64,000 nucleotides of DNA from Deltaproteobacteria bacterium (lineage in GTDB: Bacteria; Myxococcota; Myxococcia; Myxococcales; SZAS-1): the NCBI GenBank assembly GCA_018266075.1, contig JAFEBB010000003.1, positions 124,001 to 188,000 on the forward strand. The letters are read 5' to 3'. Positions 34,314 through 40,683 of the stretch are shown here, in pieces. The notes beneath the pieces are model-generated. The model had not been told where the DNA came from, made no database searches, and saw nothing but the letters and a program-made list of their open reading frames with translations. Within the stretch, counting starts at the first letter, position 1; the number at the start of each line of letters is the position of its first letter. The position numbers and the translations under genes were made by a program.

Positions 34314-34637
34314 GTGACCGATTCGATGGTGGTGCCGCTGTCGTCGTATCCGGCGCCACACCCCGGGGCCGGGATCGAGCGGGTGGGGGACCGACTGATG
34401 GCCGCTTCACCCGACGATCACCTGCACCACTTCGTCGAAGAGGACGAGTCGCCCTCGCACACCGCGGAGCGCGTGGTGGAGCTGGCCGACGGCTCCCGCA
34501 CGGTGGCGCAGATCGCCTCGACGATTGTCGAGGAGTTCGAGGGGGCGACGCTGGAGCAGGTTCAAGACGACGTCCGCGCGTTCGTGGGCGCCATGGTGGC
34601 CAAGCAAGTGCTGGTGTTGCACGACCACCCGCTGTAG
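34314..34637 (+). CDS. PqqD-like protein (putative RiPP recognition element)
   Basis: PqqD-fold proteins bind leader peptides and present them to modifying enzymes. The 107-residue product ends in the PqqD pattern: an acidic first strand region 'HFVEEDESPSHTAERVVEL', the turn 'ADGSRTVAQIASTIVEEF', and the last helix 'VQDDVRAFVGAMVAKQVLVL'. The first 30 residues are Pro-rich and not part of the fold; M29 (34398) is an alternative start. It is a stand-alone PqqD rather than a fusion, and no PQQ biosynthesis genes are near. Downstream on the same strand lie a large lipoprotein, a six-cysteine peptide, a kinase and a signal-peptidase-like protein. Together they suggest a peptide-modification locus (inference). 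Confidence 0.82.
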   Translation: MTDSMVVPLSSYPAPHPGAGIERVGDRLMAASPDDHLHHFVEEDESPSHTAERVVELADGSRTVAQIASTIVEEFEGATLEQVQDDVRAFVGAMVAKQVLVLHDHPL

Positions 34638-34695
34638 GACGCTCCCCATTCAGGGCCGAATTTCCAAGAAGTCTGCGATCTCCGAGGAGCAACGC

Positions 34696-37600
34696 GTGAT
34701 TGCCCGAAACTTCCGAAGCCTTCACTTCGCGCTGGGCGCGATCTTCATTGCCTCGATCTCGTCGTGCTCGTGCGGCAGCTCGTCCGAGAAGAACCCCGGG
34801 GTGAAAATCACCAACCCCACCGCTGGGCAGGTGCTCACGCAAGCGGATGACTCGGACGCCGCCACGCCAGGGATCCAGCACGACGTGATCGTCCACGTCA
34901 CCAACGTGACCAGCAATTCCACGCTCACGTTGACGATCAACGGCACGACGGTCGGAAGCCTTCAGCCGAGCGCGACCCAGGACCAGGGCGAAGACATCAC
35001 CTTCCACAGCGTGCCGTTCCCCGCGGGGCAGGACACGGTCATCGCGACCGTCAAGGACTCGAGCACCAACAAGTCTGGCACCGACTCCAAGACCGTGAGC
35101 GTTACGCCCGCGGCCACGTGCAACTTCACTACGCCGGCCGACGGCGCCACCCTGACCTCCGACGAGGACGCGAGCACCGAGGTCTTCAACCAGAAGGTGC
35201 TTGTGCAGTGTCCGGCGTCGTTGGCGGCCTTGACCGGCACGTTGCAGGTGACAGTGGTCATCGGGAATCACCGGCAGGACGTCTCGCCGCTCACCGCCAC
35301 GCTCGATTCCACGGGCCTCGCCACCTTCGACAAGGCCCAGCTGGGCGAGGGCACCAACGCGATCACCTTCACCGCTGTGGACAGCACCGGCACGACGGTG
35401 GGCTCCGCGAACGAGACCGTCATCGTGAACACCGGCAAGTGCCCGGTGATCCTGGGTGAGCACAACCACGTGATCTACAACGCGGCCGGCGGGACGCCCC
35501 CGGATCCCACCGAGACCCGCCCGGTGATTGCCGACACGGATCCCAACACGCCCGACGTGCAGGCCACGTTCACCGGCTACGTGGACACCGGCGTGTGCCC
35601 CGGCGCGTCGGCGACCATCAGCTTCGACAGCGCGCCGGCGGGCACGGCGACGGTGGACAGCTCCGGCGAGTTCATCTTCAGCAACGTCACCCTCCCCAAC
35701 GGCGACCCGGTGCTCGAGGTGGTGCATGCCACGAGCGGGAGCAAGACTGGCGTGTCGGTGGCGAACACGTATGGCGTGGACTCGGTGATCCCTGTCCTCA
35801 GCATCAGCGCGCCTGCTTCGGGAACGATCACAGATACCGATGGCGGCACCAACGGCGTGAGCGAGCAAGTGACGGTGCACCTCGTCTCGGGCTTCAACGG
35901 CGAGGAGTTTGCGAGCCTCGCAGACAACGGCACGCCGCGCATCGGCCAGACGGCGATCTCTCCTCTGCCGGCAATTCCCGGTGACTGGCCCTTCCCGAAC
36001 CCCGTGATGCTGACCACCGGCCCCCACTCGCTCGTGGCCACGGCGACCCGCAAGCTCGGCAATCAGGGCAACTCGCAGCCCGTGAGTGTGACCGTGCAGC
36101 AGCCGGGCGGCATTGGCCTCACCCTTCTTCAGCCGGGCACGACCAACGTGGTGTGCAACCACGCGAGCGATGAGAACCCGAACACGCAGGACTGTGACCT
36201 GACGATGAAGGTGCAGGCCAACGGCGCGGCCGACGGTGGCAGCGTGGCGTTCTGGTTCGACGACGGCGGCCAGACGACGGTGGCGCTCGACGCCAACCTT
36301 CAGGCCCAGACCCAGTTCCAGCTCCCGCAGGGCCAGCACACCATCGCAGCCGTGGCGAGCAACGGCCAGGCGGCGTCGAACCAGGTCACCGCGGCGATTC
36401 GCGTGGACACCATCGCCCCGGTGCTCACCTGGGTCACCCCTCCGCAGGACGGTGGTCCGAACACGGAGAGCAGCCAGACCTTCAGCGTGACCCTGCAGAC
36501 CGACGCCGAAAACGGCCAGGTGGTCATGGTGACCCTTGATGGCGGCAACGTCGGCTCGGGCCCTGTGGACGGCGGCTTCGCCACGTTCAACGTCGCGGTG
36601 CCCGGCGAAGGTATCGCGCAGTTGCTCGTGGCCAACGTTCAGGACGACGCGGGTAATCCCGCAGTGCCGGCCGTGGTGGGCGTGGACGTCATTGTCGACG
36701 GTGGCTGCGTGATCAACCTCAACGAGCCGAGCACGCTGGTGATCAACGCGAGCACCGATGGCGGGCTGACCCAGACGATCACCGGCAACACGCCGACGCC
36801 CGCATGTGCGAACGGTACCGTGACGTTCCTCGCGGCGACGCCCGCGAGCGGCACGCCGAACCAGGTGGGCACCGCGCAGGCGGTCGGAGGCGCCTTCTCC
36901 TTCACCTACACGTTCACGGACCAGGCCTCGACCCAGTTCACCGCGCAGATGACCAGCCCGAGCGGCAATACGAATCAGGCGTCGTTCAATGTGAACGCGG
37001 ACACGATTCCCCCCGTGATCTCCCTGAATGTGCCGCAGCAGGACGCCAGCGGGAACCTGTACGTGGTGGAGGCCTTGGGCAACCTGAACGTGGTCGCGGG
37101 GGCGCTCGGCTACGCCGCTGACGCGGACGGCAGTACCGCCGGCGCGCAGGTCAACGTGCTCATCAACGTGAGCGGCGTGGGTGACGTCTTTGGTTCGGGC
37201 GGAATGGGTTCGGTGAACATTCTCGAGGGAAGCACGCCGCTCATCACGCAGCCTCTCACGTTTACCCGAAATGACTTCTTCCAGATCGCCTCGCCCACGA
37301 GCGTTCCGGTCCTGACGTTGACGGAGGCGAAGAGCACCACATTCACGCTGGTGGCGACCGATTCGGTGGGCAACACGACCACCGTGAACATTCCGCTTCG
37401 CGTCAAGAGCGTGCCGCCGCCGCAGCCCACGCTCGTGACCACGGATCCGGGCAACGGGCAGTACACGCACGTCAGCAACTACCGACACGCGGACTTCCTC
37501 GTCGTCGCCTCGGATACGGCGGATCCCCAGGGCGACACGTTGGAGTTCGACGTGGGCTTCTCGGCTCCACTCCGATTCGGAAACGGGGTGTTCAACGACG

Positions 37601-38970
37601 GCGTCTTCGACAACACGGGTTACACCACAATCATCAACGAAGGCACCTTCGCCGCTTCGCCGGTGACCGTCACCAACGTCCCACCGCTCAACGACTACTC
37701 ACTCGCGGCCCGAGCCGTCGACTCACTCGGCAACATCTCTCTCATCTCCAACGTGGCCGATATGGACACCCGGTTCCCACGAACGACCATCCCCTACGCT
37801 GGACCGTCAGCGGCTGGTGCGCTCTTTGGCTCAACGATCGCCCTCGGGCACATCAACACCCAGCCGGGCCACACCGCGCTCGACATCGCCGCGTTCGCCA
37901 CCGAGCCAAACAGGGAAGGCTCGGTTCAGGTGATCTACGGCGGCTCGCTCACCACCACCCAGCAGTTCAACGGGCCGTTCACCACGAGCGCCTACTTCGG
38001 CAATCCGATGACTCTGGGTGACGTGAACAACGACGGTGCCGCCGACCTCCTCGTCTACGATAGCGACAGGATCGACGTGTACCTCTCCGACGGCACCACC
38101 CTGCCCACCACGCCGAGCTTCACGCTCACCGGCACGGGCGCAACCGACGCGTACACGCTCGCGGTGGTGCCCGACATCACCGGCGACGGCATCAACGACA
38201 TCGTCATCGGTGATCCGATCGACGGGGCGGGTGGCCAGATCTTCGTGATTCGCGGGCGCGCAAGCTGGCCAGCCTCGGTCGACACCAGCGCCGCGGACGT
38301 CATCATCGACGGCGTCGTCCCAGGCTCGAACTTCGGCAACAACCTTCAGCACGGCACCATCGGGTTCCCCGGGTTTTCCGGCGACACGAGTAACGCGCTC
38401 GTCGTGCCCGCAGCGTCGACCAACATGGTGTACCTCTTCAAGGGAAGCGCGCTGATGGCGAAGGGCCAGGCGGCGACCATCGCCGACGCGATGACGACCT
38501 TCACCACCACCACCGTGCCCTCAAACTCTCGCTACGGGCACGCGCTACTCGCGTACGACATCAACAACGATGGGTTGGAAGACTTGCTCATCGCGGACAC
38601 GGGCCAGCCTTCGCACGTCTTCGCCTACTTGCAGTCGGGAGGCACAGTGGTGGCCGATCCGGCGGCGAGCGCGTATCTCGGCGGGTCGCCCACCAATTTC
38701 GGCTATCAGATGGCCTCGGGCGACCTGAACGGCGATGGCATCGCCGACCTGGTCGTGGGCCGCGGCGTGACGGGAAACGCCCAGGCGCTGAACCTGTTCG
38801 TGGGGCGTGCAGGTGGAATTCCTCAGGGATCCGGTCCAGACTCGGCTGAATACGGTGACCTGCAGTTCGGCACCGACTTCGCCATCGGAGACGTGACGGG
38901 TGACGGGCTGCCCGACATCGTCGTGGGAGAGCCAGACAATGGCAACGGAACCGTCGAAGTCCTCCACTAG
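34696..38970 (+). CDS. Giant lipoprotein, Ig-like repeats and C-terminal FG-GAP repeats
   Basis: This 1,424-residue surface protein has a signal peptide ending in Cys (C24 in ISSC), followed by a Ser/Cys-rich patch. The first about 1,000 residues are beta-rich Ig/Big-like modules with repeated 'VNTGKCPVIL', 'VTFLAATPASG', 'DTIPPVISL' type strands. From about 1,025 on there are FG-GAP/integrin-alpha-like repeats with Ca-binding loops: 'LGDVNNDGAADLLV', 'VPDITGDGINDIVIGDP', 'YDINNDGLEDLLIAD', 'SGDLNGDGIADLVVG' and 'IGDVTGDGLPDIVVGEP'. These are consistent with a seven-bladed propeller. The GTG start has GAGGAG upstream; longer in-frame versions lie inside pqqD in another frame and are unlikely. 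Its 3' end overlaps the six-cysteine peptide gene by 32 bp. Confidence 0.85.
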   Translation: MIARNFRSLHFALGAIFIASISSCSCGSSSEKNPGVKITNPTAGQVLTQADDSDAATPGIQHDVIVHVTNVTSNSTLTLTINGTTVGSLQPSATQDQGEDITFHSVPFPAGQDTVIATVKDSSTNKSGTDSKTVSVTPAATCNFTTPADGATLTSDEDASTEVFNQKVLVQCPASLAALTGTLQVTVVIGNHRQDVSPLTATLDSTGLATFDKAQLGEGTNAITFTAVDSTGTTVGSANETVIVNTGKCPVILGEHNHVIYNAAGGTPPDPTETRPVIADTDPNTPDVQATFTGYVDTGVCPGASATISFDSAPAGTATVDSSGEFIFSNVTLPNGDPVLEVVHATSGSKTGVSVANTYGVDSVIPVLSISAPASGTITDTDGGTNGVSEQVTVHLVSGFNGEEFASLADNGTPRIGQTAISPLPAIPGDWPFPNPVMLTTGPHSLVATATRKLGNQGNSQPVSVTVQQPGGIGLTLLQPGTTNVVCNHASDENPNTQDCDLTMKVQANGAADGGSVAFWFDDGGQTTVALDANLQAQTQFQLPQGQHTIAAVASNGQAASNQVTAAIRVDTIAPVLTWVTPPQDGGPNTESSQTFSVTLQTDAENGQVVMVTLDGGNVGSGPVDGGFATFNVAVPGEGIAQLLVANVQDDAGNPAVPAVVGVDVIVDGGCVINLNEPSTLVINASTDGGLTQTITGNTPTPACANGTVTFLAATPASGTPNQVGTAQAVGGAFSFTYTFTDQASTQFTAQMTSPSGNTNQASFNVNADTIPPVISLNVPQQDASGNLYVVEALGNLNVVAGALGYAADADGSTAGAQVNVLINVSGVGDVFGSGGMGSVNILEGSTPLITQPLTFTRNDFFQIASPTSVPVLTLTEAKSTTFTLVATDSVGNTTTVNIPLRVKSVPPPQPTLVTTDPGNGQYTHVSNYRHADFLVVASDTADPQGDTLEFDVGFSAPLRFGNGVFNDGVFDNTGYTTIINEGTFAASPVTVTNVPPLNDYSLAARAVDSLGNISLISNVADMDTRFPRTTIPYAGPSAAGALFGSTIALGHINTQPGHTALDIAAFATEPNREGSVQVIYGGSLTTTQQFNGPFTTSAYFGNPMTLGDVNNDGAADLLVYDSDRIDVYLSDGTTLPTTPSFTLTGTGATDAYTLAVVPDITGDGINDIVIGDPIDGAGGQIFVIRGRASWPASVDTSAADVIIDGVVPGSNFGNNLQHGTIGFPGFSGDTSNALVVPAASTNMVYLFKGSALMAKGQAATIADAMTTFTTTTVPSNSRYGHALLAYDINNDGLEDLLIADTGQPSHVFAYLQSGGTVVADPAASAYLGGSPTNFGYQMASGDLNGDGIADLVVGRGVTGNAQALNLFVGRAGGIPQGSGPDSAEYGDLQFGTDFAIGDVTGDGLPDIVVGEPDNGNGTVEVLH

Positions 38971-39130
38971 CGGTACGAGGCGGGCCTACGCTGCGCCGCG
39001 CGTGAAGAGCGAGCGGCTCCTGGGCACCGTATACGGGTGCACGCCGTCGACGTGTCCCAACTCCGCGTGCCCGAAGGGCACGACAATCTGCCACGGCTGG
39101 GATACGTCGTGTCAGCCCATCTGCACCTAG
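38939..39130 (+). CDS. Candidate RiPP precursor peptide, 63 aa, six cysteines
   Basis: This is a short gene with a basic Ser/Thr-rich N-terminus (about 1-31) and a compact tail of 32 residues. The tail has cysteines at 34, 39, 44, 51, 58 and 62 (gaps of 4, 4, 6, 6, 3). Residues 17-20 are Y-A-A-P, a YxxP motif like that recognised by the PqqD-fold B1 proteins of lasso clusters, followed by 'RVKSERLLG'. The tail contains many Thr, Ser and Pro but no Asp or Glu at the usual lasso ring positions. GGGAGA lies about eight bases before the ATG at 38939; a GTG at 38900 is possible. It has no signal peptide. Role as a modified peptide is inference; a small disulfide-rich cytoplasmic protein is the alternative. 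Confidence 0.6.
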   Translation: MATEPSKSSTSGTRRAYAAPRVKSERLLGTVYGCTPSTCPNSACPKGTTICHGWDTSCQPICT

Positions 39131-39536
39131 GGCTTTCTCGAGATCCAATCGTGCTTGGCGGCGCGCCAGAGCGCGAACCGAAGAAGCCCGAGTGCCTGCC
39201 ACCTGCGCCGACTCGGCGGCCTCGCAAGCCAAATGGCTGAGCGGACCGGCCTCGCTAGCGGTCGAGCCAGCCCAAGCTTCGAGGCCGCCTGCCGCTCGTA
39301 CGCTCTGGGCGCTCGCGGAGGTCGGCCGGTGAGCCAATTGGGTTGTCCTGCCCGCCCGTCGGGCTGACGCCTCGACCCTCAGGGCAATGACCCTGGCCAA
39401 ATTGGCCGACTTCTCGACCACGCTGGCTCACGTGCCGCGGCAATGGGGAGCTTCGACCGCACACTGGGTCGACGCGTCGGCCAATTGGGTTGCCCTCCCA
39501 GCCAAATCGGCGCCGCAAGCTACACTCGTGGCCGTC
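39131..39536. promoter_or_regulatory. Gene-free 406-bp gap with GCCAAWTTGGC-like palindromes
   Basis: No convincing gene lies here; the reading frames in it have no ribosome binding site or family pattern. It holds a cluster of related short palindromes. These are AGCCAAATGGCT (39227-39238), CCAATTGG (39334-39341, within GCCAATTGGGTTG), GGCCAAATTGGCC (39395-39407), and CCAATTGG again (39481-39488, within a second GCCAATTGGGTTG). A half-matching GCCAAATCGGC lies at 39501-39511. TACACT at 39521-39526, ten bases before the kinase ATG, could be a -10 box for a nearly leaderless transcript. Likely regulatory; the binding protein is unknown. Confidence 0.5.
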
Positions 39537-40280
39537 ATGCCAGTCCGATTGCTCCACGCCCTCTCCACCTCCGACGTCGAGCCCCTCTCCCACCTCGGCT
39601 GGCCCGACGGCCCGTGCACCGAGCGCATCTCCATCCAGATCCTCCGTCCCGCCACCGCCGATCGCCCCCTCGAGCGCGTCCGCTTCACCCGCCCGGGCTA
39701 TTCGGTGGATGCCGAGCTCGACCTCTCCTCCCGCGAGCCCCACCAGATCGGTTCCATCCGCCTCCAGTGCGCCATCGCGGCTTCCACGTTCGGCCAGAGC
39801 GGCCTCCTCATCCACGGCGCGGGGCTGGCGCTCGAGGGCCGGGGTGCCGTCGCCGCGTTCGCGCCCTCCGGCGGGGGCAAGTCCACGCTCTCCAACCTCG
39901 CCGAGCGCTTCATCGGCCTCTCCGACGAGACCGTGCTCCTCGTCCCCGGGCCGCCGCCGCAGCTCTTCGCCACCCCGCTGCGCTCCAGCTCCACCAAGGT
40001 CCCCGAGCCGCGCGTGGATCCGCTGCGAGCGCTGCTCATCTTGGAGAAGTCGCTCGAGCCTTCATTCACCCGGCTCAAGCCCGACGTGGCCCTCAAGCAG
40101 CTCCTCTTGCAGGCCTACAAGCTCCCGCCCGAGCTCGCGCCGCCGGCGCAGGTCTTCAAGCGGGCGGCCAAGCTGGTGGAGAATGTCCCGGCGTACCGCT
40201 TCGCCTTCCCCAAGTCGCCTCTCGCGCAGGACCTCTTGCTCCGCCTCTTCGATGACGAGCTCTCGCCAGAAATTCCGTGA
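39537..40280 (+). CDS. HprK-like kinase (ATP-binding, P-loop)
   Basis: This 247-residue protein resembles the C-terminal kinase domain of HPr kinase and its paralogues found next to PqqD and lasso genes. 'LLIHGAGLAL' (91-100) leads into the P-loop 'FAPSGGGKSTLSNLA' (108-122), followed by 'GLSDETVLL' (127-135), which holds the acidic residue of the HprK site. The first 60 residues match no known domain. There is no membrane segment. The ATG at 39537 was chosen as the first Met ahead of the conserved region; an in-frame extension to 39387 exists but has unusual composition. It overlaps the next gene by 29 bp. A role in phosphorylating the upstream peptide is possible but unproven. Confidence 0.75.
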   Translation: MPVRLLHALSTSDVEPLSHLGWPDGPCTERISIQILRPATADRPLERVRFTRPGYSVDAELDLSSREPHQIGSIRLQCAIAASTFGQSGLLIHGAGLALEGRGAVAAFAPSGGGKSTLSNLAERFIGLSDETVLLVPGPPPQLFATPLRSSSTKVPEPRVDPLRALLILEKSLEPSFTRLKPDVALKQLLLQAYKLPPELAPPAQVFKRAAKLVENVPAYRFAFPKSPLAQDLLLRLFDDELSPEIP

Positions 40281-40683
40281 GCACCTCGGCCTCGACGACG
40301 CCGAGCGCACCGTGCCCACGGCGTCCATGTGGCCCACCATCCGCGCGGGCGACGGCATCCGCTTCCGCCGCGAGCGCCGCACGCCCCGGCTCGGTGAGGT
40401 CTGGGTGGCGGAGCTGGGCCAGGTGCACGTCTGCCATCGGGTCATCTGGGTGAGCGGCGAGCACGCGTGGCTCAAAGGCGACTGGGTGCTCGCGCCCGAC
40501 GGCCGCGTCCCGGTGAAGCAGCTCTTCGGGCCGCTCTCCGCGGTGCGCCGCGGCGACGACTGGCGCCCCACCAATCGCCGGCGCGATCGCGCGATCGGAT
40601 TGGCCCTCTCGCTGATCGGCTCCACCTGGCAGCTGACGCGTGGCGTCCTCGGTCGCGCGCGTCGGCTGGCGTTCGCGCGCTAG
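40252..40683 (+). CDS. S26-type signal-peptidase-like protease (Ser/His dyad)
   Basis: This 143-residue protein resembles a type I signal peptidase core. The nucleophile motif is S25-M-W-P-T-I (SMxPT-I), followed by 'RAGDGIRFRR'. The second catalytic region reads 'HVCHRVIWV' with H62 and then 'WLKGDWVLAPDG'. In bacterial type I peptidases the general base is a Lys; His in an HRV context followed by a (K)GD box is the archaeal/Sec11/SipW arrangement. There is no N-terminal membrane anchor; only a weak hydrophobic stretch occurs at about 114-128. Its ATG lies inside the kinase gene, so they are translationally coupled. It could remove the leader of the six-cysteine peptide (inference). Confidence 0.72.
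   Translation: MTSSRQKFREHLGLDDAERTVPTASMWPTIRAGDGIRFRRERRTPRLGEVWVAELGQVHVCHRVIWVSGEHAWLKGDWVLAPDGRVPVKQLFGPLSAVRRGDDWRPTNRRRDRAIGLALSLIGSTWQLTRGVLGRARRLAFAR

Follow-up and report, generated by a model that had tools for sequence, protein, structure and literature searches.

Within a window of 64,000 nucleotides from a Deltaproteobacteria bacterium (GenBank assembly GCA_018266075.1; genome of 7.84 Mb in 166 contigs, the locus lying on contig 3), a block of five plus-strand genes at 34314-40683 encodes a PqqD-fold protein, a giant Ig/FG-GAP lipoprotein, a short Cys-rich precursor peptide, an HprK-like kinase and an S26 signal-peptidase-like protein (Table 1). We read this locus, with a probability of roughly 60%, as a pathway of Myxococcota for a ribosomally synthesized and post-translationally modified peptide (RiPP) that resembles the pathway of the linear polyphosphorylated peptides (LPP), in which PqqD, kinase and S26 protein process the precursor and the lipoprotein acts as its surface partner. 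The system is real, conserved and apparently undescribed: in the open-access literature searched, we found neither a description of a PqqD/FG-GAP/peptide system nor any described system with a constant lipoprotein partner. An earlier note on this DNA had listed the same five plus-strand genes, including the 29-bp overlap between the kinase and S26 genes, and had proposed that PqqD, YxxP peptide, kinase and S26 belong together in a RiPP-type peptide-modification locus; the gene positions are correct, and synteny across families bears out the proposal.

Conservation of gene order was observed well beyond the source genome. A kinase search covering 60 genomes of the order recovered relatives in 25, and locus after locus repeats the order PqqD, large Ig/FG-GAP lipoprotein (~1,200-3,000 amino acids), short YxxP open reading frame (ORF) and kinase, often with an S26-like gene 3' of the kinase. 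With further genomes added, 36 such loci (hereafter type A) were seen in five families (f1, f2, f3, f7 and f9), so that the peptide frame and gene order, on whose persistence in other genomes the earlier note had staked the linkage, are indeed kept. Contig ends cut two type A loci (L045, L047) and leave PqqD outside the view, and other genes intervene between peptide and kinase in L055, L105, L107, L109 and L110. The KdsD-like isomerase next to the block had no match in any relative locus; therefore, it is the block rather than the region that is conserved. The kinase family is present in 102 of 149 good Myxococcota genomes (E 1e-10). A broad contig scan with the kinase alignment, which was swamped by the P-loop pattern, yielded one Acidobacteria locus, without PqqD, S26 or FG-GAP, and a plasmid search with the kinase gave no match.

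Chance does not explain the peptide ORF. We sought a short ORF with the strict leader motif 30-330 bp after stop codons: 33 of 37 lipoprotein stops had one, compared with 14 of the 996 stops of other long ORFs, and for random positions the count was 105 of 7,400. The first of these counts is inflated by related genomes, though five families are spanned, and in the other four loci the leader motif is present if a single position is relaxed. Counted from the leader motif on, five close peptide pairs differ by at most one amino-acid change each, with no changes in four. A codon-usage gene finder skipped the peptide in the window, and the frame overlaps the preceding gene, both of which would suit a fortuitous reading frame; given the counts above, the substitution pattern of the close pairs and a leader that is position-specific, we give that explanation practically no weight.

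We aligned 33 peptides on the leader Tyr, positions -2, 0, +3 and +5 having been used to find many of them and the other positions not. The leader has K/R at -3 (32 peptides), Y (32), P at +3 (33) and V/L/I at +5 (31), followed by S/T at +7 (28), E at +8 (19) and L at +15 (22); it fits [Y/W]xxPx[L/V/I], the window peptide having YxxPxV. Cys accounts for 13.7% of residues from Y+16 on but 0.5% of those preceding. This marks a sharp boundary between leader and core, roughly as far from the Tyr as the end of the LPP leader (Y-16 to T-1). Leaders are conserved, whereas cores are hypervariable and mostly Cys-rich; the alignment, a check suggested in the earlier note, shows no strict set of six cysteines, the core Cys number ranging from 0 to 8 across the family. 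Ser or Thr occurs at Y+17 to Y+20 in 26 of 29 peptides, with a peak at +19 (48%) and a fall to 3% at +22. The position of S3 in LppA would equal Y+18, and the window residue there, T35, is the best candidate phosphosite.

Among solved structures, the closest relatives of the PqqD profile (A3) are the lasso RiPP recognition element (RRE) TbiB1 (6e-11) and PqqD (4.5e-8), with weaker PDB sequence matches to the PqqD-family RREs 9x90 (1.7e-6) and 9x8z (1.2e-5). The window kinase matches TIGR04352 (HprK-related kinase A) weakly (E 7e-5), and this model is matched by 13 of 16 aligned kinase members. G89, H93, G114, K115, T117 and D130 are invariant in the kinase alignment and G112 and E131 nearly so; H93, G112, G114, K115, D130 and E131 correspond to H148, G166, G168, K169, D186 and D187 of BsfK, residues probed there by mutation, the last Asp being replaced by Glu. 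Against the PDB, the kinase profile gave P-loop matches only. For the S26 profile (A4), the best solved relative is SEC11A (3.1e-10), i.e., the Ser-His-Asp type of archaea and the endoplasmic reticulum (ER); H62 and D83 are invariant, and the S25 position is Cys in two aligned relatives. Several relatives support the favoured reading: kinase and S26 are fused in L050, and RiPP-type neighbours are seen in L048 (an S26-like stretch and a GNAT domain in one ORF) and in L054 and L058 (radical SAM genes 3' of the kinase). The kinase-S26 ORF of L050 (10513-9356, minus strand) has Cys at the nucleophile position (TCMWP), likewise L053 and L058.

The lipoprotein, which the earlier note had singled out as relevant, proved to be the most constant neighbour of the peptide. 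It has FG-GAP domains (PF01839, 1.1e-19; PF13517, 6.8e-19) and weak Big_3_3/Big_13 matches, the lipobox in the window reads ASISS before CSCG, and a homologue occupies the same slot, immediately left of the peptide, in type A loci. Genus g43 has its kinase gene elsewhere, and PqqD, lipoprotein and YxxP Cys-rich peptide follow one another in the three loci reaching far enough. We regard the lipoprotein as part of the system because of its adjacency to the peptide in 33 of 37 loci and because PqqD-lipoprotein-peptide is kept where the kinase is unlinked. In 24 of 31 cases, the lipobox Cys has a second Cys two residues further on (C-S-C-G or the like); under one uniform rule, CxC was found at the lipobox of 5 of 7 giants and of none of the 14 other lipoproteins encoded in these loci (p 0.001). 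At two related loci (L053, L058), Cys-less peptides coincide with a lipoprotein without the second Cys, which is only a hint.

From gene order alone, we infer that the lipoprotein is probably the partner of the peptide at the cell surface; "carrier or receptor", as the earlier note had it, is a guess. A more specific and rather improbable version is that the lipoprotein has the modified Cys-rich peptide as its prosthetic group or ligand of ribosomal origin, the peptide being joined to it (e.g., by a disulfide to the CxC beside the lipid anchor) or docked in its propeller; the system would then be a phylum-wide surface decoration by a phosphorylated RiPP and not the source of a secreted product. 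Conversely, the peptide pathway and the lipoprotein might be independent, the latter being an adhesin that shares an operon without a functional link. Such independence would agree with the type C clusters (L056 of the same genome; L122), which combine PqqD, peptide, kinase and S26 with a radical SAM/SPASM-type enzyme, read from its CxxxCxxC motif, in place of the lipoprotein; yet in type A the lipoprotein gene directly precedes the peptide gene, even when the kinase is gone, the lipobox CxC was seen only in these giants, and in type B (L057, L059, L060, L117, L121, L129) the slot is also filled by a large protein, a PQQ_2-type beta-propeller in L060, the one tested. We consider independence quite doubtful.

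Side observations add detail on these arrangements. Large-genome relatives (L057, L059, L060, L129) have S26, PqqD, a protein of ~1,030 amino acids, a YxxP peptide (e.g., RAYEAPAILWEQPFVALAQISQCQIPGESECIP) and the kinase. The second cluster of the source genome, L056 (contig C14, 9896-12730), encodes PqqD, the radical SAM/SPASM-type protein, a three-Cys YxxP peptide beginning RRPYAPPSIEQVTIVPDEAMFGFCK, an HprK-like kinase and S26, and similar clusters occur in family f11 (L119, L122).

LPP, made by the lpp cluster of Paenibacillus alginolyticus (Popov et al., May 2026), are described as Bacillota-restricted (PMC13381572). Their core set is an RRE, an HprK kinase and an archaeal-type signal-peptidase-like Ser/His/Asp leader peptidase, without lasso enzymes; YxxP is bound by the RRE, LppK attaches phosphates to S3, and leader cleavage by LppS depends on the RRE (PMC13381572). 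The window locus likewise has a discrete PqqD-type RRE, an HprK-like kinase and a SEC11-like Ser/His/Asp peptidase, its precursor shares the YxxPxV leader, and lasso cyclase and B2 peptidase are absent in both. The assertion in the earlier note that known classes do not explain the locus has to be corrected, since LPP have the same RRE, HprK kinase, SpI-type peptidase and YxxP leader and no lasso enzymes (PMC13381572). In contrast to LPP, the window system belongs to Myxococcota, has Cys-rich cores and a phylum-wide spread, and is the only one of the two with a giant beta-propeller lipoprotein in a constant position between RRE and peptide.

The bsf lasso cluster of Bradymonas sediminis has a YxxPxL leader and an RRE-assisted HprK-like kinase that phosphorylates core position 3, and is bordered by an FG-GAP repeat protein presumed uninvolved by its authors (PMC10368454). 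The same kinase catalytic set and a YxxPx[L/V/I]-type leader are found in the window locus; however, bsf has B2 and cyclase where the window has neither, and the FG-GAP protein that flanks bsf is a constant component here. Echoing that protein, a smaller FG-GAP ORF (414 amino acids, five motifs; L132, 5243-6484, plus strand) lies near a lasso B2/kinase cluster. The SynChlorMet cassette (NCBIfam ScmC/ScmD/ScmE/ScmF) also has HprK-related and PqqD-related proteins, whose models our kinase and PqqD match weakly, but radical SAM enzymes belong to that cassette, whereas the five-gene block of the window has no radical SAM maturase and L056 has one. The lasso-type RRE, YxxPx[LVI] leader and HprK kinase of the locus are shared with lasso clusters, and the locus might accordingly be taken for a lasso-peptide cluster with B2 peptidase and cyclase elsewhere in the genome. 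We reject this as very improbable: the B2 leader peptidase (PF13471) has no match in the source genome, all eight Asn-synthase-type cyclase matches lie on contigs other than C3, and, under the same profile, the lasso-linked kinases of the phylum (beside PF13471 genes) score far lower (E 1e-7 to 1e-19 versus 1e-42 to 1e-82 for type A) and, fragments apart, are placed elsewhere in the kinase tree.

By analogy with the characterised LPP and Bsf pathways, from which phosphorylation, cleavage and the order of steps are drawn, PqqD would bind the 63-residue precursor at its YxxPxV leader and present it to the HprK-like kinase, which would phosphorylate a Ser/Thr at the core start, T35 being the best candidate. 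The S26/SEC11-type peptidase may then remove the leader at a predicted site ~15-17 residues past the Tyr. The product would be a short Cys-rich phosphopeptide, probably disulfide-bonded, and the giant lipoprotein a putative surface partner holding, displaying or receiving it.

Several points weigh against this LPP-like reading. The full LPP consensus, YxxPxVLxHQxIxFETxxS, is not matched by the window leader, which has YAAPRVKSERLLGTVYGC and shares only YxxPxV, and LppN (a nucleoside triphosphate transferase) and LppD (an MsbA-type exporter) are absent from the locus; for these reasons, we file it as LPP-like and not as LPP, and without an LppD-type exporter, export is unexplained. The HprK fold rests on sequence motifs because a single-sequence AlphaFold2 model of the kinase was unusable (predicted local distance difference test, pLDDT, 38.7). 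Some relatives have Cys for Ser in S26, S26 was not found near some kinases, and PqqD and kinase genes are not linked in one genus (g43). Finally, the observations cover gene content, conservation, motifs, the leader/core boundary and catalytic residues; the modification and the function are argued by inference.

The product might instead be a secreted linear phosphopeptide bacteriocin or signal, with the lipoprotein as receptor or immunity factor and not as carrier. The contrast between hypervariable cores and conserved leaders and the variants with radical SAM and GNAT enzymes fit such a role, which we nevertheless judge unlikely, as a kinase family spread through the phylum and a strict lipoprotein slot look more like a housekeeping surface function, and neither an exporter gene nor an immunity gene is a constant part of the locus. 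Most type A loci have, 3' of S26, genes for an EamA-family permease and an MBL-fold (RMMBL) protein (e.g., L043, 11183-13101; L047, L048, most of f3); we do not claim either as part of the system, as no EamA homologue was found in the source genome, where the MBL gene lies on a different contig.

For HprK-type phosphorylated RiPPs (paeninodin, LPP), which have no established biological role, a surface role is suggested by a conserved myxobacterial branch that is tied to a surface lipoprotein and whose kinase family occurs in most of the Myxococcota genomes examined; this branch also makes gene-deletion tests of the role feasible. An LPP-like set in Myxococcota extends beyond Bacillota, the stated limit of LPP, and about forty precursor sequences are now available, in which the leader is clear, a phosphosite can be proposed and the cores are hypervariable and mostly Cys-rich.

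Table 1 Features of the five-gene block, with positions in the window.
Feature	Position	Strand	Description
PqqD-fold protein (discrete RRE)	34314..34637	+	107 aa, GTG start; PF05402 35.9 bits (cut-off 23.4)
Giant Ig/FG-GAP lipoprotein	34696..38970	+	1,424 aa; lipobox with CSCG, Ig-like domains, C-terminal FG-GAP beta-propeller
Precursor peptide	38939..39130	+	63 aa, six Cys, Y17-A-A-P20; MATEPSKSSTSGTRRAYAAPRVKSERLLGTVYGCTPSTCPNSACPKGTTICHGWDTSCQPICT
Leader recognition part of peptide	38978..39031	+	residues 14-31, RRAYAAPRVKSERLLGTV; family pattern
Predicted core of peptide	39032..39127	+	~residues 32-63, six Cys; candidate phosphosite T35 (Y+18)
HprK-like (lasso/LPP-type) peptide kinase	39537..40280	+	247 aa, P-loop APSGGGKST
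S26 archaeal/ER-type signal-peptidase-like peptidase	40252..40683	+	143 aa; S25, H62, D83; probable leader peptidase

The first 32 bp of the peptide gene lie within the 3' end of the lipoprotein gene, GGGAG stands shortly 5' of the peptide ATG, and no convincing second copy of the peptide was found in a same-genome search. The kinase start is uncertain, ATG 39537 giving the best fit to the lengths of relatives and ATG 39387 being also open. The block is neighboured by the KpsF/KdsD-type isomerase, an Ig-domain protein and a minus-strand gene without an assigned family. Peptide and kinase are 406 bp apart in the window, compared with a short gap or overlap in most relatives. A mobile repeat was ruled out for this spacer (39135-39530), which is single-copy in the genome. 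In the spacer at 39131-39536, of a kind that most relatives lack, we observed a 37-nt direct repeat (78%) containing GCCAATTGGGTTG, together with several inverted repeats.

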